Under the pieces are notes generated by a model. The model was not told where the DNA came from. It ran no database searches and saw nothing but the letters and a program-made list of their open reading frames with translations. The position numbers and the translations under genes were made by a program. Source: Arenibacter sp. ARW7G5Y1 (lineage in GTDB: Bacteria > Bacteroidota > Bacteroidia > Flavobacteriales > Flavobacteriaceae). From it: DNA of 64,000 bases. The stretch spans positions 1 to 64,000 of the forward strand of contig NZ_QJJZ01000002.1 of NCBI RefSeq assembly GCF_003201775.1. The letters are read 5' to 3'. This document shows, piece by piece, positions 18,663-41,299 of this stretch. Position 1 is the stretch's first letter. Every line of letters starts with the position of its first letter.

Positions 18663-19124
18663 TTAATTATAATTTAGCCTATGATCTATATGTGGATGCT
18701 CCCATTTACCGCTAATTAAGTATAGCTCGTAATAAATAAACCATTCCAATGCCCATGGGATTATAGTATCGTATAAATTATGTTTTCGAAAATTCCAATA
18801 AAAGTTATCTGTCTCACGATGAAATAAACATAGACTCATGTCATTCGAAAACATATGAATTTCATCATTATAAATAATTTCAGGGCTATTAATAAACACC
18901 CTTGGACTATATATACCGTCATAGACAATTTTAAATTCGTACTCAACTGAGTAAGGGGTTGGCTTAGTTTTGCCGATACAGATTAATTTATTATTCAAAA
19001 TATGACAATTCAAAAAGCCATAATTTATTTCAATTAGCTTTTTCTCTCTTACTAGAATTACTCGAGAAGAGAGAAAAGATTGAGACCTATTGAATCTATT
19101 TTTATGAAATTTTCTACCAGCCAT
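18663..19124 (-). CDS. stand-alone E2-like protein of type II-short CBASS
   Basis: This 153-residue protein ends with DTIIPWALEWFIYYELYLISGKW..PHIDH, the conserved tail of the E2-like domain of CBASS proteins (W-x-x-E-W-L-x-x-Y-E-x-W-x-x-T-G-x-W, then His). The E2 active site is H90...SNDMSLCLF with C99 as candidate catalytic cysteine. The E1 and JAB domains of full type II CBASS (Cap2, Cap3) are absent, both here and nearby, which defines the type II-short arrangement. The ATG at 19124 overlaps the end of the CD-NTase gene by 11 bases. In this group the E2 is thought to modify or prime the CD-NTase by thioester-type chemistry. I am sure of the association, less so of the biochemical activity. 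Confidence 0.75.
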   Translation of the reverse strand: MAGRKFHKNRFNRSQSFLSSRVILVREKKLIEINYGFLNCHILNNKLICIGKTKPTPYSVEYEFKIVYDGIYSPRVFINSPEIIYNDEIHMFSNDMSLCLFHRETDNFYWNFRKHNLYDTIIPWALEWFIYYELYLISGKWEHPHIDHRLNYN

Positions 19125-20121
19125 AATTTGTGTGAGGTTTATTTTTTACACCATTGCTGGATGAAATAGAACCATCTTTTTGTGTGAATGCAGTACCGCT
19201 TAAAACTTTTTCGGAAAGCTTTCTTAATGCAGATTCTTTTGCATCGATGTCTTCATCAGCACCAAATGGAAACTTGTCCCCCATATGCTTTCTCCATAAT
19301 TTACTTGCTTTAAGTTGATTAGGCTCATCATTACAAGCCTTTTTTGCATCCTCTATAAAATCCTTTAAATTAGAAAGAAAGTTATTCTTTCTTGCATCGT
19401 CATAGCCTTCAAAAAGATCATCATAAGGTGTACTAGGTACGATACATTCAAACTTCTTAGTTAAGGATTCTTGAATTTTTATTAATGTATCTTTTAAGGA
19501 AATATCATCTCTATCATCAAATTGAATGTTTTCTGCCGCAAGAATGGACATGGCTAAACCACTTGGCATTTTATTCCTTTTAAAGTCTCCCCAAGCTTTC
19601 AAAGATTTGGTGGTTCTATGAAATTGTCCATTTGTATCTTTTTGATTAAAATACCATTGCACCACTTCTTTAGGGTCACTCTCTTGTAAGTCTTTATTTT
19701 TAACAGCTAGAAATGGATGATCCTTATCCTTTGGAAAATAATAAGCCGGAAAATCAATATGATAGTCGGATTGATAAATTACCCTTATACATTTACTTCG
19801 ATGTTCTGGTGGTGTCATTGTGGCATCTTCAACAGCATTTTTAATCCAGGTTTGCAGTGTAGTGCCAGAAACACCAATTTCCCTTTTAAAATATACCCCA
19901 TCGTCCAAATCACATTCATCATCCTTAGTTAATATTGTCGTTCCCATTTTATAGGAGCCTTGAATATAAAATTCAGGTTTGTACTCTGGGTGATTATCTT
20001 TAAAATACTTTCTGATTTTATTTCTAAGTACTTCTTTTGAGTTCATTAAACCCTCTTTTTTCTTTTTTTTGATGTTTAAATTCTTATCAAAATCCAAGAA
20101 TAGTTTATTACAATTCGCCAT
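19114..20121 (-). CDS. CBASS CD-NTase, DncV-like cyclic nucleotide synthase
   Basis: This 335-residue protein is a cGAS/DncV-like nucleotidyltransferase. The GS motif is at G55-S56 (IQGSYKMGT), the first two catalytic aspartates at D71 and D73 (ECDLDDGVYF) and the third at D123 (YHIDFPAYY). The C-terminal half includes KSLKAWGDFKRNKMPSG and ASKLWRKHMGDKFPFG, as in the DncV clade. On infection such enzymes make cyclic di- or trinucleotides that activate the adjacent effector, here a patatin phospholipase, so a 3',3'-cGAMP-type product is plausible. The C-terminus ends in -HTNYGW. An in-frame ATG 75 bases further in (M26, after a lysine-rich stretch) is an alternative start. Confidence 0.88.
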   Translation of the reverse strand: MANCNKLFLDFDKNLNIKKKKKEGLMNSKEVLRNKIRKYFKDNHPEYKPEFYIQGSYKMGTTILTKDDECDLDDGVYFKREIGVSGTTLQTWIKNAVEDATMTPPEHRSKCIRVIYQSDYHIDFPAYYFPKDKDHPFLAVKNKDLQESDPKEVVQWYFNQKDTNGQFHRTTKSLKAWGDFKRNKMPSGLAMSILAAENIQFDDRDDISLKDTLIKIQESLTKKFECIVPSTPYDDLFEGYDDARKNNFLSNLKDFIEDAKKACNDEPNQLKASKLWRKHMGDKFPFGADEDIDAKESALRKLSEKVLSGTAFTQKDGSISSSNGVKNKPHTNYGW

Positions 20122-20159
20122 TTTTTTTATTTTTTAAATTAATACCGGATTAGAATTTG

Positions 20160-21140
20160 TTATTTAGTTGAGAAAAATGAATTCAGGACTTCCTTACCTT
20201 CAAATTGAAATATTCGTGAGGCCTTCTCGGCTAATTTATTCAGCTTGTTAGGGCAAGTTTCATCCATAGCTACGTTGAAGTTTTGGTCAAAATCCAAATC
20301 AATTCTCTTATATAAAAAGCCTTCATTGAATTTTTTCAAAACGGAAATAGAATTATGGGCCAATTGAGATTGTCCTTGCATAAAGAGCTCAAGAATTCGC
20401 TTTTTTGACAGCCAGTATGTTACTGACCATAGTTTTTTATTTCTGGTTTCTGAATATTTATACTGACCAGTACCCAATGATAATAATTCAATATCAGCAA
20501 GCTCTTTTTCAAAGCGTGTTCTTGCTTCAATTATACCAAGCATACTAGGGTTGTTGGCGTAAACCCCACCATCAACTTTATTTGAAAAAGACTCTAATGT
20601 ATTTGAATCTATCCTTTTGAAGGTGTTCGAATATGCGTTAAAATATGTAGGTGCTGCAGACGTTGCCATGGCAGCCATATAAATGGGTATATGCTTATCT
20701 ATAATTAAATCTGTTGCGTGAGGGGTTTTTAATACTTGCGTAGCACCATCTATCAAACTATAAGTAGGAATTAGAACCTTGGTCTCTTTTATATCATCAA
20801 TTCTCGGATCAGTATCCATTGAATGATACTTTTTAAAAATGTCTCTAATTAATTTTTCTAGAGGTTTGTTACAATAAAATGGTTTCTTAAATAAATTGTA
20901 CCTCTTTTTTCCAAATATAGTATTTGCGTTTTTTTGGTATAGGTTCAAGATTTCTTTAGCCGGTATTCCTAGTGATAAGGCAAGCGCGATTATACCTCCA
21001 GTAGAAGTTCCACATATTAAATCGAAATGTTTATGAATTTGACCTTCACCAATTTCCTCCTCTATGCTAGTTAAAAATTTAGCAGGAAAGACTCCTTTCA
21101 TACCCCCACCATCAATAGATAAAATTTTAAATTTTTTCAT
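20160..21140 (-). CDS. capV: CapV-like patatin phospholipase, CBASS effector
   Basis: This 326-residue protein is a patatin-like phospholipase. The oxyanion loop is at 9-16 (SIDGGGMKGVFPA), the nucleophile S46 in GTSTGG, and the catalytic D190 in KVDGGVYANNP. The adjacent DncV-like synthase and E2-like protein identify it as CapV, whose activation by a cyclic dinucleotide degrades membrane phospholipids and kills or arrests the infected cell. It is the first gene of the CBASS operon, 39 bases before the CD-NTase. Its own promoter/operator lies at 21171-21208, matching the one before the methyltransferase-kinase gene. Confidence 0.9.
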   Translation of the reverse strand: MKKFKILSIDGGGMKGVFPAKFLTSIEEEIGEGQIHKHFDLICGTSTGGIIALALSLGIPAKEILNLYQKNANTIFGKKRYNLFKKPFYCNKPLEKLIRDIFKKYHSMDTDPRIDDIKETKVLIPTYSLIDGATQVLKTPHATDLIIDKHIPIYMAAMATSAAPTYFNAYSNTFKRIDSNTLESFSNKVDGGVYANNPSMLGIIEARTRFEKELADIELLSLGTGQYKYSETRNKKLWSVTYWLSKKRILELFMQGQSQLAHNSISVLKKFNEGFLYKRIDLDFDQNFNVAMDETCPNKLNKLAEKASRIFQFEGKEVLNSFFSTK

Positions 21141-21170: not shown

Positions 21171-21208
21171 CAAATATCACAACTAGATGTGCAATCTAAT
21201 TGCACATC
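21171..21208 (-). promoter_or_regulatory. CBASS promoter with palindromic operator
   Basis: GATGTGCAAT-CTA-ATTGCACATC at 21186-21208 is a perfect 10-bp inverted repeat. On the minus strand, six bases downstream, GATATTTG (plus 21171-21178) fits the Bacteroidota -7 consensus TAnnTTTG at 7 of 8 positions. The start of capV is 30 bases further on. The same block, with TTTG at the same spacing, is at 31282-31319. Confidence 0.65.
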
Positions 21209-21273: not shown

Positions 21274-24200
21274 CTATGCCATCATGGCATTACCGTTGAT
21301 ACGTTCTATAATGCTTATTACTTTATAGGCATCACGATCATTAAAAATACCCAAAAGACCTTGATCATTCATATCTGTAAATGGTGGTTCAAAAAGCAAA
21401 CTTGGCTCAATAGTACCATTCTGGGTTAAATAGGAAATAATATTCTGTATAAAAGTTATTTGGTCTGCCCTTAAATTACCTGCTTGTAGAAACTCAGAAA
21501 AAGCCTCTTGGGCAGCTTTGACATCTAGCCCAATGATACCTCTAATAAATACACCTAATGGTTCTTCACCAAATTCCTTAACATAGTCCTTATATGTTCC
21601 TCTTTCTGTACCATCGAACAGAATAGATTCTAATAGCTTCAATTCTTTTGCAGTTATAGGCTCGTTGGTAAGTAATTTTGAAATTGTTAACTGATGCTTA
21701 TTCTCTCTTACAAAACTCTCAACTCTTCTTCTGTATGCGTTTCCATAATTGGAGGATATATCAGGTTCTTTAATTGTCATGGTTATATCAGAATCTTGAA
21801 GATTTGAGTAAATAATTGCTCTGTTATTACTTTCAAGATATTGTATTAATTCTCTTAATTCTTCTCGAATACTCTCTAACTTTTTTTGAGAAATATCTTT
21901 GTAAAAATCTTGTCTTTTAATGTCTTCAATAAGCGGTTTTGCTCTAAGCACTACTGGAATTGTATACTTAAGACTTAACCCTTCAGCAATATCAATAAGG
22001 GTTTCTTCGTATTTCCTTTTTGTACTTGACATCATTAGGGTGGCAATTTGAAGCTTTAACATCATTAAGTCAAAACGCCTTGCCATTTCATTAATAGTTT
22101 CAGGTATTGGTAGCTCTGATAAATATTCCTCTATAATATGAGCATCATTGCTATCAAGAGTATTCCATCTTGCCCGATCATTAAATTCGTCTACATATTT
22201 CAAATTCATGGAAACTTGAAATCTTTTTCTATCCAATTGTTGAATAGTATTATGCAAGATATCAAGTAATGAATTAGCCAATTCTATATTTTCTGTTTCT
22301 CCATCCTCGGCAAGCAACCTACTTAAATGTAATCTCGATTCAAAAATCTGTTGTGTTATTGGCTTTCCAACTAAAGACTCTTTACCTTTTTTCTGAACTT
22401 CAAAGAAATCAAAATTGCCACATACATCAAAAATCAAGAATTCCTCTTTGGGCTGATTTGGTCCAAAAACATCATCGCATAGCCTTGTACCTCTACCAAT
22501 CATTTGCCAGAATTTTGCATAGGATCGCACCACTTTGAAGAATACCAAATTTAATATCCTAACAGCATCTATCCCTGTGTCCATCATATCTACAGAAACC
22601 GCAATTTGGGGATTGTTCTCTTTATACCTATCACAAAATGAATCTATTAGGCTCTGTGCGTGAGACACCTCATTATGTATCATTGAGATAAAACCAGCAG
22701 GTAATTCAGGATATCTTTCTGTAAAACATTCTACGATAAATTTTGCATGATTCTGATTTACTGCAAAAATGATAGTTCTACCTAGTTTATCTCCGCCCTC
22801 TATTTTTAACCCATTTTGCATTAAAGCGTCCAAGACCTTGTTTACAGTATCTTTATTAAATAACCATTTATTCATGGCATTTGCCCTAATTTCTTCAGGG
22901 AATAACCCAGTAGTTTGATCTTGAAAAGTTGCTTCGTATTTCTCTTTTTCTTTTCTAGATAAATCTTTATATTTTATACCTTCTCTTAAAAAATCAGTAG
23001 TAATATCAATGTTTTTATAGGATTTTAAATATAAAGGAACAGCTTGGTTTAGTTCATAAAGGAATGTTGGATCCTCATTACTACAGCCAAAAAGTTCAAA
23101 AGTATTGTGGTCGATACCGTCTTTAGGAGTTGCCGTAAGTCCAACAATACTTGCATCAAAATAATCAAATATAGCTCTATACCGATTATAAACAGAACGA
23201 TGTGCTTCGTCAATAATGATTAAATCGAAATGACCTACACCATAAAATCGTTCATCAGTAGTTCTAACATTATCAATCTTGTTCATCATACTTGGGTAAG
23301 TACTAAAAACCAATCTTGTAGTGTCATTCTCTTTTTCCTCGGTTAAATCTATAGAGGATAAATTTGGTAAATGCTCATTAAAACTATTTTTTGCTTGACG
23401 AACCAAAGCATTTCTATCGGCAAGAAACAACGCTCTTTTAACCCAATTATTTTTAAAAAGTACATCTACCAAAGCAGCTGCCGTTCTAGTTTTACCGCTA
23501 CCGGTCGCCATAACCAATAAGGCTCTTCTCTTATTGCCACAAATTCCATTTTCACTATCTGTAACAAAAGTTTCTGCAACCCTATTTATTGCTTCAAACT
23601 GATACGGCCGGTTAACAATACTCGTATTAATCGTGGCGTTTCTTAAGTCCTTTATAGTGGACCTTTTTTGAATCATCCACTGTAATTCCTCTTTGGTGTA
23701 AAAACCGAAAACTCGACGTGGATAACTATAGAATTTATCATCCCATAATTTGCTTTCGTAACCATTGGTATAAAAAATAACAGGTCTTTGACCGTGCATT
23801 TGTTCTAAACAATTGGCATATAAGTAGGCCTGGTGTTTACCAATTTCAACATCTTTGGTGGTTCTTTTAGCTTCTACTAGTGCCAACGGCTTTCCGTTAT
23901 CATCCCAAAGTACGTAATCTACGGAACCGTTACCTTTTGGATTATCAACTGTAATGGGCATGCCAATAACTGGGTATTCTATTTCTCTACCGATATTCAA
24001 ATCACCCCAACCAGCTTCTTTTAAATCAACATCTATTATATGTTGTCTTGTTTCAGCTTCCGTAAACTCTAAGGAAATAGGCTTTAATCGAGCTTGCTTT
24101 TGCTCTTTAAGTTTAGCTACTGCAACCAACTTTTGCTGTTCAAAGTTTCGGAAAGAAATTTCACTTTCTTGAGCTTTAGCCAAAATAGCTTCTTTTTCCT

Positions 24201-24711
24201 TTTCAAGATTCGCAATTTGTTCTAGTAAAAGATTATGGGCTTTTTCTTGTTCTAATTGTTGTTCTGTTAATTGACGTTGTTTTTGACCTAATTTAGGAAT
24301 AATGGCTTCATTAAAGGATCCTGGTAATTCTGGAAAAGATTTACTGTAATTTCTTGAAAACCATTTCAAGAAATCAAAGCAATATCGTATGCTAATTAGA
24401 GCATCTTTATTCGTCACACGCCGACCATAATGAGAGGCATTATTCCCAGTTTTTCTAACGATATGTAAACCGTTATTAAGTTGATAGGGTATGAGACTTT
24501 TAATTTTTTCATGTGTCATTAATTGTACAAGATCGGCATTAAAAGGCTTTTCTATATACTCCAAATCATACATTAGGTGCATACATTCCTCCAATACTAA
24601 ACGGCAGTAACTGGCAGTTGATACAGGCTCTGTATAAACTCTGTCTTCTGCTTTTTTTAATTTATTATAGAGTGATATCCACTCGACTTGAAGAAACTGA
24701 AAGTTGCCCAT
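21274..24711 (-). CDS. hsdR: type I restriction enzyme, R (translocase/nuclease) subunit
   Basis: This 1145-residue protein has an N-terminal DUF4145-like helical domain (about 30-125), a coiled coil (about 140-205), a PD-(D/E)xK nuclease with D265, E280 and K282 (SVDYVLWD...LALVEAKRT), then an SF2 motor with Walker A at 402-409 (MATGSGKTRT), DEAH at 501-504 (IIIDEAHRS) and LTATP. The motif VI region is MIGRGTRLC. The C-terminal EcoEI-type domain binds HsdM. It completes HsdM and HsdS, encoded just upstream. The order hsdM-hsdS-small gene-hsdR with short gaps implies one operon. All nuclease and motor motifs look intact, so the enzyme is probably active. Confidence 0.92.
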   Translation of the reverse strand: MGNFQFLQVEWISLYNKLKKAEDRVYTEPVSTASYCRLVLEECMHLMYDLEYIEKPFNADLVQLMTHEKIKSLIPYQLNNGLHIVRKTGNNASHYGRRVTNKDALISIRYCFDFLKWFSRNYSKSFPELPGSFNEAIIPKLGQKQRQLTEQQLEQEKAHNLLLEQIANLEKEKEAILAKAQESEISFRNFEQQKLVAVAKLKEQKQARLKPISLEFTEAETRQHIIDVDLKEAGWGDLNIGREIEYPVIGMPITVDNPKGNGSVDYVLWDDNGKPLALVEAKRTTKDVEIGKHQAYLYANCLEQMHGQRPVIFYTNGYESKLWDDKFYSYPRRVFGFYTKEELQWMIQKRSTIKDLRNATINTSIVNRPYQFEAINRVAETFVTDSENGICGNKRRALLVMATGSGKTRTAAALVDVLFKNNWVKRALFLADRNALVRQAKNSFNEHLPNLSSIDLTEEKENDTTRLVFSTYPSMMNKIDNVRTTDERFYGVGHFDLIIIDEAHRSVYNRYRAIFDYFDASIVGLTATPKDGIDHNTFELFGCSNEDPTFLYELNQAVPLYLKSYKNIDITTDFLREGIKYKDLSRKEKEKYEATFQDQTTGLFPEEIRANAMNKWLFNKDTVNKVLDALMQNGLKIEGGDKLGRTIIFAVNQNHAKFIVECFTERYPELPAGFISMIHNEVSHAQSLIDSFCDRYKENNPQIAVSVDMMDTGIDAVRILNLVFFKVVRSYAKFWQMIGRGTRLCDDVFGPNQPKEEFLIFDVCGNFDFFEVQKKGKESLVGKPITQQIFESRLHLSRLLAEDGETENIELANSLLDILHNTIQQLDRKRFQVSMNLKYVDEFNDRARWNTLDSNDAHIIEEYLSELPIPETINEMARRFDLMMLKLQIATLMMSSTKRKYEETLIDIAEGLSLKYTIPVVLRAKPLIEDIKRQDFYKDISQKKLESIREELRELIQYLESNNRAIIYSNLQDSDITMTIKEPDISSNYGNAYRRRVESFVRENKHQLTISKLLTNEPITAKELKLLESILFDGTERGTYKDYVKEFGEEPLGVFIRGIIGLDVKAAQEAFSEFLQAGNLRADQITFIQNIISYLTQNGTIEPSLLFEPPFTDMNDQGLLGIFNDRDAYKVISIIERINGNAMMA

Positions 24712-24988: not shown

Positions 24989-26149
24989 TTAATTTTGGAC
25001 CAACTCGCCTTTAAACGCCTTTTGTAAAAGACTATTAAACAATTCTTCTGATTTTTTTAAACTCTTTTGTGTGATAGATTTTTGCTGTTCAATAATGGAT
25101 AATTGATTTATAAATTGATGTTGTAACTCAATTGGCGGGTCAATAATAGGAAAATCCTCAATGTGACCTTTGTTAAGTTGCCTTTTATCAATACCACCTA
25201 CACATACATTTCTAATATGACCTCTATATTCCTTTGTTGTCAGTATATGCAAAACAAACTCATTTATAATTTCTTTTTTAAGCCTTATAAAATAAACGTG
25301 GCCATTTACATTTGCTTTATCATCCTCACCTAAATACATTGCAGCTCTACCCAAACTACTATTTTCCGTATTAATTCTACCCGTTTTTGTCATTAAAATG
25401 TCTCTGTGCTTTAGGCTGCTTTTCATCATTTTATCATGAGTCGCTTGATTTATAAAAGCTATATCTTCATGCACTAATCTATTCTTCCAAACATTTTGAC
25501 TTCTAAAAAATGTAATACCTTCTTGAACATAAACTGCACTTCCGCCTTTCGGCGTATTCCCACTATGTATTTTTGTTGAAATTTCCTTTAATTTTTTAAC
25601 TTTCCACCCTTTAGGATTACTTACAGGGTCCCCAAACATATCCAAAAATAGGGCATGTGAGAGATCACCATATTTTGCCAGAAGTGTTAGGTCTTTTTGT
25701 TTTATTGAATCTGCTGCATCCAGTATATTGGCAATTTTTTGTTGTTGAAATATTGGAGGTAACGGTATTTGTAGGCTTTCTAATATTGGTCTTGAAATGT
25801 GAGGAATAGTTGCTCCGGTACAATTTTCCCTTAAATACTTAAACTTTGATTGTAAAAACCTACCTACATAATCAACATTAACACCTTCAACTTTTGGAGT
25901 TAATTTAGCCAAAGTACTTCCAACAACACCTTTTAAATTATACCCTATAGTTCCTGCATTAGCGCCATCCCAGGCTATAAGGATATCATTTAAATCACAC
26001 AAAACGTTTGAAGGACTTTTGACGGCAAATTTTAAAATATCATCATTTCTAAGGTCACCTATTTGAATATATCTAAGTCCAGTATCGTTGTCTGATTCTT
26101 TCGCTTTTTTGCCTTTGGAAATTTTAAATAGATTACTTAATTTTCTCAT
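24989..26149 (-). CDS. hsdS: type I restriction-modification specificity subunit
   Basis: This 386-residue protein has the HsdS layout of two target-recognition domains separated by helices. The first TRD (about 1-125, YIQIGDLRNDDI, ENCTGATIPHISRPILESLQIPLPP) is followed by a helix (IFQQQKIANILDAADSIKQKDLTLLAKY). The second TRD (about 185-345) contains KKLKEISTKIHSGNTPKGG, and the second helix is at about 345-380 (SIIEQQKSITQKSLKKSEELFNSLLQKAFKGEL). The ATG overlaps the stop of hsdM (ATGA at 26146-26149). It binds two half-sites and sets the sequence modified by HsdM and cut by HsdR. The target sequence cannot be predicted by eye. Confidence 0.93.
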   Translation of the reverse strand: MRKLSNLFKISKGKKAKESDNDTGLRYIQIGDLRNDDILKFAVKSPSNVLCDLNDILIAWDGANAGTIGYNLKGVVGSTLAKLTPKVEGVNVDYVGRFLQSKFKYLRENCTGATIPHISRPILESLQIPLPPIFQQQKIANILDAADSIKQKDLTLLAKYGDLSHALFLDMFGDPVSNPKGWKVKKLKEISTKIHSGNTPKGGSAVYVQEGITFFRSQNVWKNRLVHEDIAFINQATHDKMMKSSLKHRDILMTKTGRINTENSSLGRAAMYLGEDDKANVNGHVYFIRLKKEIINEFVLHILTTKEYRGHIRNVCVGGIDKRQLNKGHIEDFPIIDPPIELQHQFINQLSIIEQQKSITQKSLKKSEELFNSLLQKAFKGELVQN

Positions 26150-27621
26150 TTCAACAATACTTCTAAAGTTTGTAAAGCTGCATCTCTCTCTCTGTTCAGT
26201 TCCTTTATTTCCTCAATAATAGTTGCTGGTGGTGCATAAAACACTTCATCATATATTACTTCTTTGTATCGGCTAATAGATAAATCCCAATCATTAGCAA
26301 TAATTTCCGCAACTGGAACAAGAAAGCTTTTATCCTTTCGTTTTCTTTTAGCTTCCCCAGTTAAATTGTAATAACGGTTTACAATATCTGGTATATCATT
26401 TTCTTTTGTTTCAGTTCGTTGATCATTTAAAGAATATCCATCAGATTGCATGTCATAAAACCAAACATTATCCGTTCCTGCCGTGCCTGTTTTAGTGAAA
26501 AACAGAACGGCAGTACTAACTCCCGCATAAGGCTTAAACACCCCACTTGGCATAGATATCACGGCATCTAATTTGTGTTTTTCTATTATCTCTTTTCTAA
26601 TTTGCTTGTGTGCATTAGAGCTGCCAAATAGCACTCCATCCGGTACTATTACCGCGCATCTACCACCGGTTTTAAGCATACGTAACATCAAACCTAAAAA
26701 TAGTAATTCTGTCTTTTTAGATTTTACGGTTTTCAGTATCGACGTTTCTACCCCATCATAATCTAAACTCCCTTTAAAGGGTGGGTTCGCTAATATTAAT
26801 GAGAACTGGTCTCTTAAATCTCCATTGCTTTCACTCAAGGCATCTTTACTAATGAGTATTGGGTTTTCTATACCGTGTAATTGTAGGTTCATTGCGCCAA
26901 TACGTAACATGGTACTATCAAACTCTACACCTGTAAACATATTACTATTGTAGTGCTCTCTAAAGGCTTTATTATGAAACCAATCGGGGTGTTTTTCATG
27001 TATATACTCTCCTGCTGCCACCAGGAATCCCGCAGTTCCTGCCGAAGGATCGCAGATGGAATCTTCTTTTTTAGGCTGTACCATATCGACAATCATTTTT
27101 ATGATATGTCTTGGGGTTCTAAATTGCCCATTTCTTCCAGCAGTAGAAATTTTAGATAGTAGATATTCATACACATCTCCTTTAGTATCCCTATCGTCCA
27201 TTTTGATTTTATCAATTAATTGTACAACTTGGTCTAGCAACCTAGGTGTAGGAATCATAAATGTAGCTCCGCTCATGTATTTAGCAAATACGCCGCTGGC
27301 ATCACCTACCTGTTTCATATGCTCGAACACAGAAAGGTCATCTACTACCTGTTTCGTGAACAAATCGAACATTGCTTGTGGCTCTTTATTTTTGAAAGAA
27401 TTCCAACGTAATTCAGACTGTTCTTTTGTAAATATTATGTTGCCAATAGGCTTTTTTATCATTGCTGATTTTCGCTCTTCTAGCAATTGAATTTCATCTA
27501 ACCTACGTATAAAAAGTAGGTAAGTAAACTGCTCAATTACAGTTAATGGGTTAGATACTCCGCCAGTGGCAAAGCTGTCCCATATCTTATCTACTTGTGA
27601 TTTAATATCTCCTGTAATCAT
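26146..27621 (-). CDS. hsdM: type I N6-adenine DNA methyltransferase subunit
   Basis: This 491-residue protein has the HsdM N-terminal helical domain (QVDKIWDSFATGGVSNPLTVIEQFTYLLFIRRLDE), the SAM-binding motif I DPSAGTAGFL at 191-200, and the catalytic NPPF at 279-282. GQFRTPRHI at about 166 is the usual G-Q-F-x-T-P entry. The C-terminal part interacts with HsdS. It is the first gene of hsdM-hsdS-small gene-hsdR and follows the receiver-domain gene by 22 bases, so it probably shares the transcript with the methyltransferase-kinase unit upstream. Confidence 0.94.
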   Translation of the reverse strand: MITGDIKSQVDKIWDSFATGGVSNPLTVIEQFTYLLFIRRLDEIQLLEERKSAMIKKPIGNIIFTKEQSELRWNSFKNKEPQAMFDLFTKQVVDDLSVFEHMKQVGDASGVFAKYMSGATFMIPTPRLLDQVVQLIDKIKMDDRDTKGDVYEYLLSKISTAGRNGQFRTPRHIIKMIVDMVQPKKEDSICDPSAGTAGFLVAAGEYIHEKHPDWFHNKAFREHYNSNMFTGVEFDSTMLRIGAMNLQLHGIENPILISKDALSESNGDLRDQFSLILANPPFKGSLDYDGVETSILKTVKSKKTELLFLGLMLRMLKTGGRCAVIVPDGVLFGSSNAHKQIRKEIIEKHKLDAVISMPSGVFKPYAGVSTAVLFFTKTGTAGTDNVWFYDMQSDGYSLNDQRTETKENDIPDIVNRYYNLTGEAKRKRKDKSFLVPVAEIIANDWDLSISRYKEVIYDEVFYAPPATIIEEIKELNRERDAALQTLEVLLK

Positions 27622-27643: not shown

Positions 27644-28816
27644 TTATAATTTAGTTACTTCTTGAGCCATTTGATTTTCTCTAACAACAAATTTTATTTT
27701 ATCATTTCGAGACAATTTCAAATTTACAATGTCGTTCTTATGTATACTAACCTTTTTACCTTCTCTATTAATTTCGGCTGTCCCCCAACCATTATTAGCA
27801 ATTTGTAATATTCTAGAAATTTCATATTTATTACCAAATTGGTCAAATTCTATATCCTCCCAAAAACTTTTGTTTAATGCCTTATTACTGTTTGTTTTTG
27901 AATATTCTGAAAACCATATTAAAACATCCATAAGTTTATAGGCTAAGCTGTATAGCAAATATGGAGATTTAATGATTTTCCTATAATCTTGATAATCCAT
28001 ATTCTGTGTAATGTCTACTTTAGAAGTATGTGAAGCTGCTCCAGTTACCAAAATAATAGATTTCACATTTTCAGATATAATTTTCGGAAAATGCGTTTTA
28101 CTGCACTTTACCTTTGAGTGTCTAGCATCTTGTCCAGAAAGGAATAAACCCGATTCTGTTATATTAACTTGACTGCCTCCTTTTTGCACACATGCATCAT
28201 GAAGCAAAGATAATTCATTGGCTTTCCTGAAAAAATGTTCTAAAACTATTCTTAATTTGGTAAAATAAAGTTCATCTTCAAAGTTTGCGAACCCGTTCTT
28301 TACTCCATTTAAAATTTGTAATAATGTCTTTTCAACTTCAGGTTCATAATCCTTTACGACTTTAAAAATTATCGGATTTTCATGTCTAATCTGAGTTTCT
28401 ATTTGTTTTGAAGAAGCATCGACCAGCATCTGAAAAAGCTTATCCTCATCGTCACTTTTTCCTTTTTCAAAAACGTTTTTAAATGCATTGTTAAACTCCT
28501 CCGAAGCATATGCTTTTGCCTGCCCAGTTAAAACAAAATATTCAAATTTTTTTGGTAACTGAAGTATTCTATCCTTAGTTTGATGTACCCATTTTGTATC
28601 TTCAGAACCTGGGCTATCGTTTTCATTTTCAAAAAATTTAGCATCCAACAAAACAGAATCATATAAATGATGATTTCTTTCAAGCTCACCGCATCCTCCA
28701 TTCATTGATTTAAAGGGCACAAGAGTAATATCATAATCTATTGCCGTTTTATGTAATGCAGACAACTCTTCATGTTGATCATCTATCCAAAGTATATTGT
28801 ATTTCGTATTATTCAT
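27644..28816 (-). CDS. receiver-domain protein, partner of the methyltransferase-kinase
   Basis: This 390-residue protein has an N-terminal response-regulator receiver: D12-D13 in NILWIDDQ, the phosphoacceptor D58 in DSVLLDAKF, T97 in FVLTGQA and a conserved lysine near K118 (NVFEKGK). The C-terminal 250 residues are not a DNA-binding output domain I recognise. They include YFTKLRIVLEHFFRKANEL (HEPN-like helix style), QNMDYQDYRKIIKSPYLLYSLAYKLMDVLIWFSEY, and a C-terminal OB-like GWGTAEINREGKKVSIHKNDIVNLKL. The ATG overlaps the end of the methyltransferase-kinase gene by 8 bases, so the two are translated together and probably form a phosphorelay. The output could be an effector rather than a transcription factor. 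Confidence 0.75.
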   Translation of the reverse strand: MNNTKYNILWIDDQHEELSALHKTAIDYDITLVPFKSMNGGCGELERNHHLYDSVLLDAKFFENENDSPGSEDTKWVHQTKDRILQLPKKFEYFVLTGQAKAYASEEFNNAFKNVFEKGKSDDEDKLFQMLVDASSKQIETQIRHENPIIFKVVKDYEPEVEKTLLQILNGVKNGFANFEDELYFTKLRIVLEHFFRKANELSLLHDACVQKGGSQVNITESGLFLSGQDARHSKVKCSKTHFPKIISENVKSIILVTGAASHTSKVDITQNMDYQDYRKIIKSPYLLYSLAYKLMDVLIWFSEYSKTNSNKALNKSFWEDIEFDQFGNKYEISRILQIANNGWGTAEINREGKKVSIHKNDIVNLKLSRNDKIKFVVRENQMAQEVTKL

Positions 28817-31256
28817 TTAATAATGGTATTATCGGAAAATTAAACTTAAAGGTAACTGGATAAATATCATTTTCATCCAAAATCAAATGCCAATCAGGAT
28901 TTCCAAAATGACTAGCTATTCTATTAATGTCATATCCTCCCAATCCAGTACCCTTTTTATTATTAGCAGTACTAAATTTAGCTACAAACTTATTTTTGTC
29001 GAAATTTTTCGGAAAGGGAAGGCCATTGTTTTTAATTGTTAGTTCTAAAAAGTCCTCAAAAACTTTAGCCTCAATGGAAACTACATTTCCCGTTCTTTTT
29101 TCTTCAAAAGCATATTTTTCAGTATTTGATATAATGTTATCTAATAAAATTTTCATTAAAGTTAAATTACAACTTATTGCCTTATTACTAATTTCCATCC
29201 TGGTCAAAGGTTGGTAATCAATCTTGAATTTCAAACCAGTATCAGGGTAATTTTTAATCATACTATTAATCTGTTCTAATGAAGCAATGGAACTTTGATA
29301 ATTGGTTAAAACAAGACCACCTTCCCCCTTCTCTAACATTGCACTTATATGATTAATATCGTCACGGATTTCTTCAAAAGTTTTAAGTAAATCAACTTTA
29401 TAATGATTTCTAAACTTCTTTTTTACTTCCTCAAATGCTTCGGAGTTATTGCTATCAAAAAATCTTAAAAGACTTTTTGCATTAGATAAAATATTTTGAC
29501 GGGGAGCACCGATTGAATGTTTTAAGGACGCAAATTCATCAAATTGATTAACTGTTTTCCCATGTAATAGAGCATTTCTTTCCTTTTCGAGATTATCTAA
29601 TTTTTTAGATAATTCTTTTAAACCTTTTACCTTTCCTCGTTGTTCTTCAATTGTAGGTAATTCGACTTTAATATTTAAAAAATCACTTCTTTTAAGAGAA
29701 GGGATCACGCCTGAAACTCGAAATAAATCAACTTGCTCCGAAATAATCTCAGCATGCATCTCATTTATTAGATAATATTGATCAACTATATTTTGATCTA
29801 CATTGAATGCTAAAATATCTGGTGTTATATAAATTGATTCTCCTTGAAAATCAAAATAAGTAGCCTTCAAAGTTTTAAACCGTAAAGAAATAAGAACACA
29901 TGATTCTGAAATACGCTTGGAGTGTCCGGGTAAAACTTGCAATTCAATTTGATTCAAATTCAGAAAGTAATCCTGACTTTCGTTTTTGAGATTTCGAATT
30001 TTAACTAACTTTCCTAATTTCCCCTTCTCAGTTCTCTTACCTTGAATAGGCGTTATAATAGCTTTTAATGGCAATCCACTGAAATCTCTTGCAAAATAAC
30101 GTTGTACACTTAAATTATACTCGAAATCTCTTACCTTAAAATTAGGAACAAAGCGTACAAATTTCGAGTCTAAATTATCATCAAGAATATCTAATAATCT
30201 TTCAAAATCTAGTTTGTTGCCTTTAACATTTTTTGAAATAATAAAATCCTTGGCATTTACCATTCGAATCTTTCCATGATTTTGAGAATTATGGCTTAAG
30301 ATCACTATGCATGTTGGTATCGCTGTATGACTAAGTAATCCTGTGGGTAAAGAAATAATTGTATCAATCTTTTCTTGTTCGACTAGTCTTTTACGAAGTT
30401 CATATTCATTACCTCCTCGAAACAAAATACCTTCAGATAAAACTGCAATAACCTTTCCATCATTATGTATGCTTTCAAGTCCTCTATCTAATAAAAACTG
30501 TTCAAATGAAATATTTCTAAATCCATAACTTGGGTAATCTGTATTCTTCATTTTTAATCCATAAGGTGGATTGGAAACAATTAAATCATATTGTATCTCA
30601 GAAGGCCAATTCTCTATAGAATCTTCTAATTTGTATTCAACATTTCTTAAACTGTTAATTCTGAAATCTCTATTACTCAATAATCGTAACATACCAAGAG
30701 CCCATGTGGTTTTATTTAGTTCTTGGGCAAAATATTTTTGATCAGAATTTATATTGGCACTAAATGACGCTAAACCAGCAAATGGATTATATATTCTAGC
30801 ATATTCAGGTACTGCTGCCAATTCCATAACAAGCTTAGTAATTTCAATTGGAAGCAAAAATTCACCAGATCGCTTACCTTGAGATTCACTTAGATGATAT
30901 AGTAAATTTTCAAAAATCAATTCAAATTTGATTTCTAATTCTTTTTTATCAATTTGGATTAAATTATAATAAAAATCTTCAAAATTTTCTTCGTTAATAT
31001 TTTGAATTATTGGCTCGTATATTTCAAATATTCTGGCATAATAACCCTCAATTTTCAACGAGTTTTTCAATCTAATAATAATATGATCCTTTTTAGTGCT
31101 AAAATCATCGATAATGTTATCGTTGTAAGCAGAAAGTAAAAACAATACTACGTGAAAATCATCAACAGGTATAGCTCCTCTAAGAATATTAAAACACTTC
31201 CAAATTTTATTGGAAATATACTTTACATCTTCATTTTCTTCATGACCAAAATCCAT
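28809..31256 (-). CDS. N6-adenine DNA methyltransferase fused to a target-recognition region and a histidine-kinase module
   Basis: This 815-residue protein has, in order, an HsdM-like helical N-terminus (1-130), G-x-F-L-L-P-x-E-I entry, motif I NPFAGLASF (157-165), catalytic NPPYG (229-233), an HsdS-like TRD segment (about 395-540, ending LPTIEEQRGKVKGL), a short coiled coil (541-570) and a kinase core. In the kinase core the H box is FASLKHSIGAPRQNIL with H580, the N box ILLDNIISN (704-711), the G1-like NNGLPFP and the G2 KGTGLGG (769-774). Methyltransferases with their own TRD are known (BcgI-like), but a fusion to a HisKA/GHKL kinase is not one I recognise. A receiver protein overlaps the 3' end. 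Expected role: sensing DNA or modification state and signalling by phosphotransfer. All catalytic motifs look intact. Confidence 0.82.
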   Translation of the reverse strand: MDFGHEENEDVKYISNKIWKCFNILRGAIPVDDFHVVLFLLSAYNDNIIDDFSTKKDHIIIRLKNSLKIEGYYARIFEIYEPIIQNINEENFEDFYYNLIQIDKKELEIKFELIFENLLYHLSESQGKRSGEFLLPIEITKLVMELAAVPEYARIYNPFAGLASFSANINSDQKYFAQELNKTTWALGMLRLLSNRDFRINSLRNVEYKLEDSIENWPSEIQYDLIVSNPPYGLKMKNTDYPSYGFRNISFEQFLLDRGLESIHNDGKVIAVLSEGILFRGGNEYELRKRLVEQEKIDTIISLPTGLLSHTAIPTCIVILSHNSQNHGKIRMVNAKDFIISKNVKGNKLDFERLLDILDDNLDSKFVRFVPNFKVRDFEYNLSVQRYFARDFSGLPLKAIITPIQGKRTEKGKLGKLVKIRNLKNESQDYFLNLNQIELQVLPGHSKRISESCVLISLRFKTLKATYFDFQGESIYITPDILAFNVDQNIVDQYYLINEMHAEIISEQVDLFRVSGVIPSLKRSDFLNIKVELPTIEEQRGKVKGLKELSKKLDNLEKERNALLHGKTVNQFDEFASLKHSIGAPRQNILSNAKSLLRFFDSNNSEAFEEVKKKFRNHYKVDLLKTFEEIRDDINHISAMLEKGEGGLVLTNYQSSIASLEQINSMIKNYPDTGLKFKIDYQPLTRMEISNKAISCNLTLMKILLDNIISNTEKYAFEEKRTGNVVSIEAKVFEDFLELTIKNNGLPFPKNFDKNKFVAKFSTANNKKGTGLGGYDINRIASHFGNPDWHLILDENDIYPVTFKFNFPIIPLLNE

Positions 31257-31281: not shown

Positions 31282-31319
31282 CAAAGTAAAAACTTAGATA
31301 CGCAACTTAATTGCACACC
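31282..31319 (-). promoter_or_regulatory. promoter/operator of the methyltransferase-kinase operon
   Basis: Bases 31295-31319 match the CBASS operator region 21184-21208 without gaps at 20 of 25 positions, keeping the ATTGCACA half-site. On the minus strand TTACTTTG (plus 31282-31289) lies at the same 6-base spacing as the -7-like box of the CBASS promoter. The methyltransferase-kinase ATG at 31256 is downstream. The left half-site is imperfect (TACGCAAC against TGTGCAAT). Confidence 0.6.
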
Positions 31320-32356
31320 TAGGTAGTATAATATTTATTCATTTCAATCGCGTGCTTTTTTATTTCATCCTTTACAATATCAGGAGAAATCACTTCCAAG
31401 TCCGAACCGAATGATAACAAGGTCTGATAAAGCTCTCTGTTAGGGATTACCAAAATAGTTATTGTCCTGTTTTCCGGATCTGACTTATCTACTTTTTGTG
31501 TTGCCCCGTGGATTGGTTTTGTAAGAACATAATTTATTCTTTCTAATGAAAACCTCAGTTTGATTTCAACGGGGTTTATGTCTTTATCCCTTGATACGCC
31601 AATAATCTCGTCAAAGTAGTCGCCCCAGTCAATTTCATTTTGTATAATGTCCAAGTTTAATTCGCTGAAGCCTAAGATTCGATCTAAAGCTAAGGTTGTC
31701 ACTCCATTATACTTAACTCCCTCTTGGAATCCAAACAAGAACCATCTGTTATTATACTGCTTAAGATGGTAAGGATGAATAATTCTTTTTGAACTTTTAC
31801 TTTCTTTGAATGACTGATATTCGATTTCTAAAACTTTTTTTCTAACCAATTGATTATAAATCTTACCAACTAATGGTTGACCGGTATAATCTCTATTGCT
31901 TTGATAACTAATTAACCCACTAAAATCTTCATGTACCAAATCGAATGCAGATTCAATTCTGGGGAATAGTTCATCTAGCCAATTAAATTCTTCACGATTG
32001 CGATATCTTGATAGAATTGATAAGGTCTCTGAAAGCTGTTCTTGATCTGATTTGTTAAGTAAGTGATTCCCAAGAGCGTACTCGGAACGTGAGTATTTAA
32101 AAATGGTTTTTTTTGTATCAAAAAGGCCTTTTTGAAATACCGGGAACTCTTCCATGTCATAATTCCTACCTATCCCTTCTTCAATTTTCTCTTTTATATA
32201 TTTAATATCGTTCTGAATAGTTTTTCTTGAAACACTATCATCAAGTGCTTCGGTAATGTGCTCTATTAATTTTTCCAATGTCCATTTAGCTGCAGGACTT
32301 GAAAAACACTCATCCAAAATTGTAATACGTTTCTGAAAATTTTTATTTAATGGCAT
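31319..32356 (-). CDS. WYL-domain transcriptional regulator (CapW/BrxR-like)
   Basis: This 345-residue protein has an N-terminal winged HTH (about 5-60, RITILDECFSSPAAKWTLEKLIEHI...SVSRKTIQNDIKYIKE). A WYL domain with the SH3-like core spans about 165-235 (VGKIYNQLVRKKVLEIEYQSF, HPYHLKQYNNRWFLFGFQEG, LALDRILGFSEL), and a WCX-like C-terminal part follows (IKLRFSLERINYVLTKPIHG...VIPNRELYQTLLSFGSDLEVISP). WYL regulators of this type repress CBASS (CapW) and BREX (BrxR) loci and bind palindromes in the target promoters, probably released by nucleic-acid ligands. Its stop codon overlaps the operator just upstream of the methyltransferase-kinase gene, and a similar operator precedes capV, so it is the leading candidate to bind both. 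Confidence 0.85.
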   Translation of the reverse strand: MPLNKNFQKRITILDECFSSPAAKWTLEKLIEHITEALDDSVSRKTIQNDIKYIKEKIEEGIGRNYDMEEFPVFQKGLFDTKKTIFKYSRSEYALGNHLLNKSDQEQLSETLSILSRYRNREEFNWLDELFPRIESAFDLVHEDFSGLISYQSNRDYTGQPLVGKIYNQLVRKKVLEIEYQSFKESKSSKRIIHPYHLKQYNNRWFLFGFQEGVKYNGVTTLALDRILGFSELNLDIIQNEIDWGDYFDEIIGVSRDKDINPVEIKLRFSLERINYVLTKPIHGATQKVDKSDPENRTITILVIPNRELYQTLLSFGSDLEVISPDIVKDEIKKHAIEMNKYYTT

Positions 32357-32392: not shown

Positions 32393-33181
32393 TTATACCA
32401 ATTTAATCAACTGGGTCTTTAGCCACTCAAAAGCAGCTCCTTGGTCATATTCAATTTCAGGTCGCAATAAAGCCTCCATATCTCCTGAAAAGTTGGGGTC
32501 AATTTCCTTTTGCTCCATATTCTGTAAAAACTCTTTTTGGGTAGGAGATTTGCCAACCGAAAAATTCATATACGCCTTAAAGCATTTAAGAATATGGCCA
32601 TGGTCTAATTCCAGATGTGATCTGGAATAATCCAAATCGAACAAATCCCGGCCTTTACTGCGTTGGTATAAAGCGCGTAGCTTGGTGCCAAGAAGTTCAT
32701 TGATGTTATAGGTTCTAATATTGGCGCTCCCTGTAAACCAATCGCTTTTAACCTCAAATGGGAACTCTACCCAGCGTAAAACATTAAAGTGCTCTTTACA
32801 ATTAATTTCTAATTTGAGGCGTAACCGTATGTCCTCGTATTCAGAAGTAAATCTATAAAACGCTTTTGCTCCATGACCGCTGACTTTGGTGTTTCGGGGT
32901 TCTTCAAAAAATGTAATTACCTCACCAATTCGTTCCATAATTGGTTTGATGGGACCTTCCTTAATTTGAACCAAATCAATATCTTCAGAATATCTAGGTG
33001 CGGGGTGGAGGTATAGTTTGTGTAATGCCGTGCCACCTCTAAAAGCTAGATTCTCTCTTAGAAAATCATCGGAAAACAACTCTACCAGGGTTCTGCTAAT
33101 GACCAAATCTTGTTCTACTTGTGAAAATGATTTCCATGGGGCATGTTCTTGCCACTCTGCTATGTAGGGTCTTGGAATCAT
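32393..33181 (-). CDS. abiEii: AbiEii-type nucleotidyltransferase toxin
   Basis: This 262-residue protein is of the AbiEii/AbiGii nucleotidyltransferase family: LAFRGGTALHKLYL (G49-G50-T51) followed by RYSEDIDLV with D67 and D69, and the downstream KLRLKLEIN and LGTKLRALYQRSKGRDLFDLDYS motifs typical of the family. The toxin of type IV AbiE systems adds nucleotides to tRNA or otherwise stops growth. The ATG overlaps the stop of the antitoxin gene (ATGA at 33178-33181). All expected motifs are intact. It is 37 bases upstream of the WYL gene and may share its transcript. Confidence 0.9.
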   Translation of the reverse strand: MIPRPYIAEWQEHAPWKSFSQVEQDLVISRTLVELFSDDFLRENLAFRGGTALHKLYLHPAPRYSEDIDLVQIKEGPIKPIMERIGEVITFFEEPRNTKVSGHGAKAFYRFTSEYEDIRLRLKLEINCKEHFNVLRWVEFPFEVKSDWFTGSANIRTYNINELLGTKLRALYQRSKGRDLFDLDYSRSHLELDHGHILKCFKAYMNFSVGKSPTQKEFLQNMEQKEIDPNFSGDMEALLRPEIEYDQGAAFEWLKTQLIKLV

Positions 33182-33972
33182 ATATCGCTCTCTAGTTTGA
33201 TGTTTTCATCAACTTTCCAAAAATTAGTTACGGCTCCAGCACTTTTTTTGGATGATGGGTTGAGCAAGACAGGATAATATTTTACTGTTTTGAAATATTC
33301 AGTAAGTACTTGAATTAACTTCTCATTATCGTTTTCGAATCCATCAATGAAATATCCCAATCTTTGTAAAGTGCTTTTGTGCGGATACCAGGACAATAAA
33401 TCTGATAAATTGGAGTAGGTGATACTGTCCATAAGCTCTTCTAGGACAGAGAGCATTCTATTCAATCCGCCCAATTTATTTTGATAGTGAATTAGGTCCA
33501 CAGCGGTCAATACTGGATCTGAAATTTTGAAAATTCCAGCATCCGATTTTTTAGTAAGGATATTTTTTTCAGGCCAATTGGTGGTAGTAAAAAAACGTAT
33601 ATCCAATGCCCCTTTGTTTATGTCCAATAGGGTTGGCTTTGTAGTAATTATATAATCACGCTGAATTTGCTGATGACTTGCACCATGAAATTTTGCTGCG
33701 GAGTATAAACCGATATAATAGGGCCTTTCTAAGTATTTAAATAGCTTTTCGCTATATAATTGAATCGGCAGTTTGGTCTGTTTCGAGTACCTAGGGGGGA
33801 TAATGAGAAAAAATTCCCTTCTTAGCGGAATAATATCCCCTTTTTTAGTTAAGTATGATAAATCCGTTGTTAGGTCCTCCTTATCTTTCTGGATCACCTC
33901 TTGGAGCTCATCCTTGGAAAAGGAGTATTCTTCAAGTGAGAGTTTTTCTTTTATGAAATCGGCGAGATACAA
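33178..33972 (-). CDS. abiEi: AbiEi-type antitoxin/transcriptional repressor
   Basis: This 264-residue protein has the AbiEi layout: an N-terminal winged HTH (KLSLEEYSFSKDELQEVI..DLTTDLSYLTKKGDIIPLRREFFLIIPP), then the antitoxin body (YSEKLFKYLERPYYIGLYSAAKFHGASHQQIQRDYI, FFTTTNWPE, ISDPVLTAVDLIHYQNKLGGLNRMLSVLEEL). AbiEi proteins neutralise AbiEii and repress their own operon by binding inverted repeats; a long inverted repeat lies right upstream of this ATG. The gene is the first of the co-directional defence block, so its promoter could drive downstream genes as well. Confidence 0.88.
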   Translation of the reverse strand: MYLADFIKEKLSLEEYSFSKDELQEVIQKDKEDLTTDLSYLTKKGDIIPLRREFFLIIPPRYSKQTKLPIQLYSEKLFKYLERPYYIGLYSAAKFHGASHQQIQRDYIITTKPTLLDINKGALDIRFFTTTNWPEKNILTKKSDAGIFKISDPVLTAVDLIHYQNKLGGLNRMLSVLEELMDSITYSNLSDLLSWYPHKSTLQRLGYFIDGFENDNEKLIQVLTEYFKTVKYYPVLLNPSSKKSAGAVTNFWKVDENIKLESDI

Positions 33973-35196: not shown

Positions 35197-36405
35197 TTAT
35201 AACAACACCTCAAGCGCCTTATCCACAATCTCAGTATCCAGTTCTTTTAGATAGGCTTGTGTAACCGCTAGATTCTGATGCCCTAAGGATTCACTAATGA
35301 CATCGGTGGCCACACCTTTTTGCTTAAGGCAATTGGCAAAACTATGCCGGGCCACATAACTGCTGACATTTTTCGTGATATTACATAGTTTGGCGATCTC
35401 TTTGAGCTCCTTATTGTAAATACCGAGCATTTTATGTTTCCTATCAGCAAGTTGGGTGGGGGTATAGTCTTCGCGAAACAATAAGGGGAATACATATTTG
35501 TTGCCATAGCCGTGAACGCGATAATAGTCCAAAATTTTCTTTACTGGGGGCATAATGGCTATGGAGAAGTTTCCTTTGGTCTTCGCTCTGGTGTAATAGA
35601 TGACGTTAGCCTCAACATCTTTCCATTCCAAGCACATCATATCGGCAAAATTCATTCCTCTGGTATAGAAGCTAAAAACAAAATAGTTCTTACAATTTAT
35701 TAAGTGCGGATGGTCTGACAAATCTAAATTGATGATGCGCATAATCTCTTCAAAATCCAAAGCACGTTTAAATCCTTTGCCTCTTAAGTTTGATATTTTA
35801 TAGGTTTTAAAGGGATATAAGCTTTCTTTTATTACACCGCGCTCTATAGCTTTATTAAACAATGCCCTTATGGCCCTCATTTTAACACCAACGCCACCAT
35901 CTGTACCACCTCGGGACCTAAGAAAGGCATCATATTTACTTAAAAAAGCAGGGTTTACCTCTCTAAAATTTAACTTCTTCATTTTATGAAAAATTTGAAT
36001 GGAGGTTTTGGCATCTTTATAGGATTTTGCATTGCCGATGCGTCCAGCAAAGGTCATTTCTTGAATAATCTCATCAAAAAAAGCAAAAACATCATTGCTT
36101 ACTGGGTTAAATGTAACTCTATATCTAGAATCAAATTCCTGTATACTGTAATCGGGATTTTCAATTTCCAAATCAGTTATAATTTGGTAAGCTCTTTCTT
36201 TGAACTTTACAAGTAGTCTGTTGAATTGGACATGGTTAGGATTTCTTTTATTGAAACTTCCTGTGGAATCTATCCATTCATCCAATTTTGCATTGAATGG
36301 TGTTTTGTAGTGCCTACATTGCCTTTCTTTTGTTACGCGCAAACAGACGGGATAGGTTCCATCCGATAACAATTTTTTCTTGAGAACGATTTTAAGTGTA
36401 ATCAT
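35197..36405 (-). CDS. tyrosine recombinase (integrase) of the island
   Basis: This 402-residue protein has the Bacteroidota integrase layout: an N-terminal arm-binding part (TLKIVLKKKLLSDGTYPVCLRV), a SAM-like core-binding domain (about 105-205) and a catalytic domain with R249 (FYTRGMNFADMMCLEW), a lysine near K276 (TRAKTKG), R353 in YVARHSFA, H376 in SLGHQNL and nucleophile Y385 (VTQAYL). All catalytic residues are present. It is transcribed away from a tRNA-Asn 3' fragment about 210 bases upstream, the typical int-att arrangement, so it very probably integrated the island at that tRNA gene. Confidence 0.93.
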   Translation of the reverse strand: MITLKIVLKKKLLSDGTYPVCLRVTKERQCRHYKTPFNAKLDEWIDSTGSFNKRNPNHVQFNRLLVKFKERAYQIITDLEIENPDYSIQEFDSRYRVTFNPVSNDVFAFFDEIIQEMTFAGRIGNAKSYKDAKTSIQIFHKMKKLNFREVNPAFLSKYDAFLRSRGGTDGGVGVKMRAIRALFNKAIERGVIKESLYPFKTYKISNLRGKGFKRALDFEEIMRIINLDLSDHPHLINCKNYFVFSFYTRGMNFADMMCLEWKDVEANVIYYTRAKTKGNFSIAIMPPVKKILDYYRVHGYGNKYVFPLLFREDYTPTQLADRKHKMLGIYNKELKEIAKLCNITKNVSSYVARHSFANCLKQKGVATDVISESLGHQNLAVTQAYLKELDTEIVDKALEVLL

Positions 36406-41193: not shown

Positions 41194-41205
41194 AATTTTT
41201 TAAAA

Positions 41206-41253: not shown

Positions 41254-41299
41254 AAAGCGTATTACTTAAACAAATGTTCAACCAATACTATGTAAATTT

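Follow-up and report, generated by a model that had tools for sequence, protein, structure and literature searches.

A fusion of type I methylase-like domains with a histidine kinase, paired with a receiver, beside restriction and CBASS genes in Arenibacter and other Bacteroidota

A fusion gene and its adjoining receiver

What does a protein built from type I methylase parts do with a histidine kinase? The question is raised by a locus of Arenibacter sp. ARW7G5Y1 (Bacteroidota, Flavobacteriaceae), within the first 64,000 nucleotides of contig NZ_QJJZ01000002.1 (assembly GCF_003201775.1); this whole stretch is called the window here. Two of its genes, which overlap by 8 bases, are the subject of this study.

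28809-31256, minus strand: fusion gene, 815 amino acids (aa), with an HsdM-like N-terminal domain, an N6 methyltransferase (MTase) fold, a single HsdS-like target recognition domain (TRD) and a histidine kinase
27644-28816, minus strand: response regulator, 390 aa

A first-pass annotation of this DNA had described a methyltransferase-TRD-kinase fusion with an overlapping, dedicated receiver gene, linked to a type I restriction-modification (R-M) operon. This description was borne out. The fusion-receiver pair is a conserved, mainly Bacteroidota cassette, and its architecture and conservation are firm at the level of sequence. As to function, we lean slightly towards a two-component system of the cytoplasm that belongs to a defence regulon and whose sensor was built from a type I methylase.

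A scan of a genome collection covering 84,980 species with the receiver profile returned 61 loci. By record title, 59 belong to Bacteroidota, and the others are two metagenome-assembled genomes (MAGs), one Algicola (L060), placed in Gammaproteobacteria by this title, and one Clostridia (L088). Two of 299 genomes from the phylum of L088 matched, namely the L088 MAG and G673, where the match covers only profile positions 128-224 and the family gene is absent from the locus. A kinase-bearing open reading frame (ORF) was found directly before the receiver in all 61 loci, as an intact fusion in 57 and fragmented or at a contig end in four. With 13 further loci included, every one of the 71 intact fusions (67 of them non-redundant) has the receiver as the next gene, in the same orientation; most of these loci were found via the receiver. 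The search from the fusion side found the receiver adjoining in six of six cases, namely the window and the five relatives matched as far as the kinase part; two further matches span the MTase part only and are ordinary HsdMs (L032/L033). An even draw of 395 Bacteroidota genomes contained 27 with a match to the receiver profile, 11 of them over most of its length, and the kinase lies upstream in each of these 11. The system is real and, at 11 of 395 sampled Bacteroidota genomes, uncommon yet widespread.

Family counts leave out L018, a receiver-only match without a fusion, the HsdM matches L032 and L033, the duplicates L035, L069, L074 and L079, and the loci without an intact fusion (L056, L064, L066 and L078). 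L094 and one L084 copy were left out of the receiver folding alignment (A4), and L044, L083, both L084 copies, L086 and L094 out of the fusion folding alignment (A5). The L084 locus carries a tandem duplication, fusion-receiver-fusion-receiver (L084:3525-10921). Among plasmids, tblastn detected a Myroides odoratimimus plasmid on which WYL, fusion, receiver, hsdM, hsdS, two further genes and hsdR follow one another; the three matching records are all from this species and all 43,223 bases long, with gene order alike in the two viewed. A phage origin was considered and rejected: phages gave no match, and viral contigs, 96 stretches of which matched a pattern, gave no confirmed relative.

In the window, the pair is followed by a complete set of type I R-M genes.

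26146-27621, minus strand: hsdM
24989-26149, minus strand: hsdS, with two Methylase_S stretches
21274-24711, minus strand: hsdR, with a DUF4145 match at the N-terminus

Such linkage is frequent: BLAST finds hsdM within eight genes in 50 of 66 intact-fusion loci (47 downstream, three upstream).

Phosphotransfer residues of kinase and receiver

29319-29651, minus strand: long helix 536-602 of the AlphaFold model, from the TRD into the dimerisation and histidine phosphotransfer (DHp) region (to 646), with phosphoacceptor candidate H580 (29517-29519)
28821-29309, minus strand: GHKL/HATPase_c catalytic domain, residues 650-812, with N711, N743, G745, G771 and G773
28400-28816, minus strand: receiver domain, residues 1-139, with D12, D13, D58, T97 and K118

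Conservation was counted in 68 non-redundant fusion-receiver pairs. H580, N711, G745, G771 and G773 are invariant and N743 is present in 67, so that H580 and the ATP-binding boxes, on which the first-pass annotation had based its kinase assignment, are conserved throughout. On the receiver side D13, D58 and K118 show no variation, position 97 holds T or S throughout, and position 12 is D in 65 pairs and E in three; whole-model PDB searches of the regulator place receiver matches at the top. Pfam matched N6_Mtase and Methylase_S on the fusion, with HATPase_c just under the cut-off in the window copy and found in 48 of 49 family members. H580 lies in the predicted helix 536-602, which is of locally low confidence. 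These features would fit phosphotransfer from H580 to D58 by the fusion kinase.

The GHKL part might be a structural ATPase without phosphotransfer, and its receiver-like partner a pseudo-receiver. We regard this as very unlikely, since H580, N711, G771, G773, D13, D58 and K118, together with T or S at position 97, are retained in every pair. Kinase and receiver also diverge together: in a covariation and identity test on the 23 loci with all genes present, a small sample, the kinase parts and the receiver gave rho 0.78 and 0.84. The sub-threshold HATPase_c score of the window copy would fit a structural ATPase, as would the residue after H580. Canonical HisKA kinases have an acidic residue right after the phosphoacceptor histidine, which is usually absent here: T or S was found in 41 of 68 (T 27, S 14; S in the window), D in nine and E in one.

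Methyltransferase motifs

30081-30920, minus strand: methyltransferase fold, residues 113-392, with motif I NPFAG (157-161) and motif IV NPPY (229-232), both intact in the window copy

The catalytic motif IV, [NDS]PP[YFW] at the aligned position, is kept in 30 of 68 fusions and lost in 38 (sought within residues 150-300, it is present in 29). In the neighbouring HsdMs, where it was sought anywhere in the protein, it is intact in 54 of 54 and lost in none. The motifs of the S-adenosylmethionine (SAM) pocket are kept oftener, motif I in 58 and the acidic motif II in 61 of the 68, and 29 fusions keep both while motif IV is lost. On a quick tree, which carries a long-branch warning with some members very divergent, the state of motif IV changes 13 times, each change forced by well-supported branches. 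The losses are clustered by descent, because shuffled labels would give 22.5 changes. The NCBIfam model MADS2, for the MADS (mad2) equivalog, scored 16 bits against a cut-off of 720.

Could the fusion be an active methyltransferase that methylates a fixed sequence, with kinase and receiver reporting how often it turns over or whether the sequence is methylated? The head shows a fold match to complete methylases, and a constant TRD would mean a constant target. Since motifs I and IV (NPFAG and NPPY) are both intact in the window copy, as motif IV is in 30 of the 68, the window fusion itself may methylate DNA. For the family we consider an active enzyme unlikely: motif IV is gone in 38 members, its state changing 13 times on the tree, with the kinase meanwhile intact, and the TRD is near-neutral in charge. 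The description of the protein as primarily a methyltransferase could not be upheld, as motif IV comes and goes while the kinase and receiver residues do not vary.

Target recognition domain and the sensed input

29652-30074, minus strand: single HsdS-like TRD, residues 395-535, from Pfam Methylase_S (446-562) and a conservation test

The fusion holds one Methylase_S stretch and lacks the two-TRD layout of HsdS. In the 23-locus test its TRD has a median identity of 0.355, close to the 0.372 of the MTase part, with which it co-varies (rho 0.82). The neighbouring HsdS TRDs show identities of 0.18-0.19, and the neighbouring HsdM 0.57. Fusion TRD and HsdS do not co-vary (rho 0.09, null maximum 0.42; -0.08 and 0.12 against the two TRDs of HsdS), and co-divergence with HsdM lies within the null for the fusion (0.08, 0.17) and for the receiver (0.23). 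The MTase part follows the receiver with rho 0.63. The net charge per 100 aa is 0.0 for the fusion TRD versus +3.2 and +4.5 for the basic HsdS TRDs. Judged by its sequence, the fusion TRD is not a normal specificity domain. Because it is conserved like the MTase part, untied to HsdS and near-neutral, we infer that the fusion reads something fixed, the same in all members, rather than the variable target of its neighbour. The kinase had been proposed to read whether the cognate R-M target is modified; with no covariation of fusion TRD and HsdS in the 23 loci, such an input is not supported.

A fixed input would also be met if the HsdM/S-like head mimicked a type I methylase as a decoy, so that phage anti-restriction agents hitting the head fire the kinase; the agents would be Ocr- or ArdA-like DNA mimics or SAM-depleting enzymes. 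A constant sensor beside hsdM and hsdS without co-divergence fits such a guard, as do a dispensable motif IV and SAM-pocket motifs that are mostly kept (29 of 68 with I and II and without IV). The top Foldseek match of the fusion by E-value is 7eew, a type I methylase solved with Ocr, but this match is owed to the fold and not to Ocr. We rate the guard as rather unlikely.

Taken with the invariant phosphotransfer residues, the frequent loss of motif IV and an undiversified TRD untied to HsdS suggest that the pair is better read as a two-component system with a methylase-derived sensor than as a methylase with a kinase.

Output domains of the response regulator

27893-28399, minus strand: helical output domain, residues 140-308, weakly DUF4145-like, with R189 and H263
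27647-27892, minus strand: C-terminal beta-rich domain, residues 309-390, an S1/cold-shock-domain-like oligonucleotide-binding (OB) fold by family evidence

The regulator model (predicted local distance difference test, pLDDT, 90.5) consists of the receiver, the helical domain and the beta-rich C-terminal tail. The window copy gave no profile match in the library searches and no helix-turn-helix (HTH) family by Pfam. R189 and H263 of the helical domain are invariant in all 68 pairs. The tail is at least 60 aa long in 51 of 68 regulators, and S1CSD-TOTE-2 matches it in 18 of 53 members (best 2e-6), the window copy itself being without match. The output may thus be directed at RNA. A HEPN ribonuclease was tried as the output and rejected. 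The HEPN motif is Rx4-6H; counting the Rx4H spacing from R189 only, the window shows R189 and H194, yet residue 194 is H in only six of 68 while R189 is in all, and the reading was dropped because H194 is not conserved.

A WYL gene and a shared operator

31319-32356, minus strand: WYL-WCX transcription factor, CapW/BrxR-like, probable repressor (Pfam WYL 6.3e-12, WCX 1.1e-10)
31282-31317, minus strand: operator 1 (TGTGCAATTAAGTTGCGTA at 31299-31317) with promoter element ending TTTG at 31282, before the fusion
21171-21206, minus strand: operator 2 (TGTGCAATTAGATTGCACA at 21188-21206) with promoter element ending TTTG at 21171, before the CBASS phospholipase gene (start 21140)
18663-21140, minus strand: genes of the cyclic oligonucleotide-based antiphage signalling system (CBASS) as a block
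20160-21140, minus strand: CBASS phospholipase effector
19114-20121, minus strand: CBASS cyclase
18663-19124, minus strand: CBASS E2-like gene

A WYL gene and two operators, unmentioned in the first-pass annotation, were found in the window. Besides WYL and WCX, Pfam finds HTH_11 weakly in the WYL protein (E 0.024). A WYL gene lies directly upstream of the fusion on the same strand in 46 of 66 intact-fusion loci and near it in four more. Between the two genes sits an element composed of the palindrome TRTGCA-N7-TGCAYA and, 15 nt on, TTTG, as in the Bacteroidota -7 box TAnnTTTG. Among 47 WYL-fusion gaps, TGCR-N7-TGCR occurs in 34 (35 with N5-9) versus a mean of 2.4 and a maximum of 7 in shuffles, and TTTG lies exactly 15 nt past the palindrome in 31. 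The 200 bp after the receiver also show an operator excess (9 of 48; shuffle mean 1.6, maximum 5).

The combined element has 84 sites in 70 loci versus 2.1 (maximum 5) in shuffled sequences, 48 of them before the fusion. Other sites precede hsdM (three), hsdR (one), genes of a DUF2130 group (four), a CBASS cyclase gene, an RmuC gene, three candidates from PADLOC and some further ORFs. Another 19 have no gene start in range, some lying beside fusions whose start is called upstream of the site. The DUF2130 group was assigned by Pfam in one member and by BLAST among themselves in the rest: a gene of 424-446 aa follows the receiver in eight homologous loci (L027:12905-14185 and seven others, DUF2130 by Pfam in L027), four with their own operator. 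In the L013 cassette, where hsdM is present only as split ORFs about 8 kb downstream, two identical operator elements (7904, 8160) lie 256 bp apart. A protein with DUF3825 and a cold-shock domain stands directly behind an operator at L068:10916-12100.

The window holds exactly two combined elements (0.04 expected), one before the fusion and one about 30 bases before the CBASS phospholipase gene; therefore restriction, kinase and CBASS probably form one regulon. A CBASS cyclase or effector is found behind the operator in three loci (the window, L037 and G142). A stricter form of the operator occurs in 12 of the 395 genomes at 14 sites, versus three sites in two genomes for the backwards control, and matches only the CBASS site in the window genome. 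Six of these 12 genomes have the receiver, compared with 11 of 395 overall (Fisher p 8e-8). In G142 the strict operator precedes a CBASS cyclase with HORMA. In G033 (L131, L142), which has no receiver-profile match, a WYL gene is followed by an operator and an RmuC gene, and a second operator, some 14.5 kb off, is flanked by a BrxL and a KAP-NTPase gene. Together these sites suggest that the WYL protein binds the operator. The suggestion that the receiver might control CBASS stands in part: what the sequence shows is an operator and promoter element common to fusion and CBASS, not an action of the receiver.

Proposed mechanism and its standing

Dimerisation of the fusion kinase through its DHp helices would place a pair of HsdM heads next to a pair of half-S TRDs, an arrangement like that of an M2S methylase, and the long helix 536-602 from the TRD into the DHp region would couple occupancy of the heads to H580. 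The sensed input could be incoming DNA, loss of a cofactor or an anti-restriction protein made by a phage. Phosphate would pass from H580 to D58 and free the output, the helical domain with, in most members, the OB-like tail, which could act on RNA or on a partner protein and so govern how strong the defence response is or when it begins. The WYL protein would act independently of this: through the palindrome that they share, it would repress both CBASS and the operon of fusion, receiver and hsdMS, with repression relieved on infection, as reported for CapW and CBASS.

Several observations weigh against this picture. The AlphaFold model has pLDDT below 50 at 567-578, the stretch around H580. 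The output resembles DUF4145 weakly: the profile matched three of 53 members, with a best E of 0.0076, and hhalign against the N-termini of HsdR gave E 0.019 at a probability of 2.5%. BLAST found no hsdM in the genes examined in 16 of 66 loci, of which one has an HsdM by Pfam and several have few genes before the contig end; in L028 WYL, fusion and receiver are all present, yet the 19.5 kb of this locus contain no hsdM-like ORF apart from the fusion. Kinase and WYL gave rho 0.23 in the 23 loci, within the null (maximum 0.30). WYL autoregulation was not seen, because no operator excess was found within 200 bp upstream of the WYL gene (2 of 48, shuffle mean 1.3). In the whole 5.73-Mb genome the loose element has three matches, the third a poor palindrome, and the genome-wide count alone is not significant because the backwards control also matches three times. 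The operator also stands before the fusion in six of 11 loci without a detected WYL gene, and for this reason the WYL protein is only the presumed binder of the shared palindrome. ORFs directly upstream of the WYL-less fusions in L063 and L047 gave no WYL match by Pfam.

To our knowledge, how bacteria decide to move from restriction to abortive defence is largely open. A methylase-derived sensor kinase with its receiver, as found in the cassette, is a concrete route by which such a signal could travel, and it allows experiments on what can be sensed by a methylase whose catalysis is dispensable; the operator element joins type I restriction with CBASS in a putative common regulon. The operator may also help to find defence genes, since hsdM, hsdR, the DUF2130 family, CBASS cyclases, RmuC and PADLOC candidates lie behind it. 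In its boldest form, which we think improbable, the methylase-built decoy would sense phage action on restriction enzymes (DNA-mimic binding or SAM depletion) and signal by phosphotransfer to a regulator with RNA-directed output, within a WYL regulon including CBASS. Restriction failure would then be handed on to cell-suicide immunity.

Other genes of the window

32393-33972, minus strand: AbiEii/AbiEi toxin-antitoxin pair, upstream of the WYL gene

The AbiEi-AbiEii pair lies directly upstream of the WYL gene in the window, and L052 has the same order. Further genes were named from ORF translations: a tyrosine-recombinase-like gene at 35197-36405, for which a PADLOC search gave no match, and beyond it, at 39299-46367, sigma-factor-like, FecR-like, TonB-receptor-like and SusD-like genes.

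Comparison with known systems

The open-licence PMC literature, judged mostly by title and abstract opening, yielded no recognisable description of the cassette. DefensePredictor (PMC13092281) names HATPase and REC in the list of domain abbreviations for the systems it predicts, one of which might be this cassette.

The cassette resembles two-component systems with HisKA/HATPase_c and receiver in its phosphotransfer residues, the DHp-like long helix and the dedicated adjacent receiver. It differs from them by its HsdM and half-HsdS input and by a helical, weakly DUF4145-like output with an optional OB-like tail, for which Pfam gave no HTH family. Compared with a type I R-M methylase (HsdM and HsdS), the fusion has one TRD and a fused kinase, its motif IV is lost in 38 of 68 members, and its TRD is undiversified. 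Schlafen RNase-minimal histidine kinase-winged HTH fusions near BREX (PMC12839542) likewise have a histidine-kinase domain fused to a defence protein, but the accessible part of that account describes no methylase or TRD and mentions no dedicated receiver. RptR (PMC12255303) is likewise a repressor linked to type I R-M islands; it differs as an alpha-helical protein binding the 6-bp TAGCTA, with no kinase or receiver mentioned as a part in the sections available.

The closest likeness on the regulatory side is to CapW and BrxR (PMC9122588, PMC9122589). According to the available parts of these papers, the sites to which CapW binds at CBASS promoters are palindromes of 19-24 bp, and the BrxR site is a pseudo-palindrome of 25 bp. 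Common features are a WYL and WCX protein beside defence genes, a 19-bp palindrome near the promoter and CBASS among the putative targets, and G033 has the window-type operator beside WYL/RmuC and again beside a BrxL gene. The locus differs from what these parts describe in that its operator TRTGCA-N7-TGCAYA stands after, not before, the WYL gene, in Bacteroidota, and that one palindrome would unite a two-component system and type I R-M operon with CBASS.

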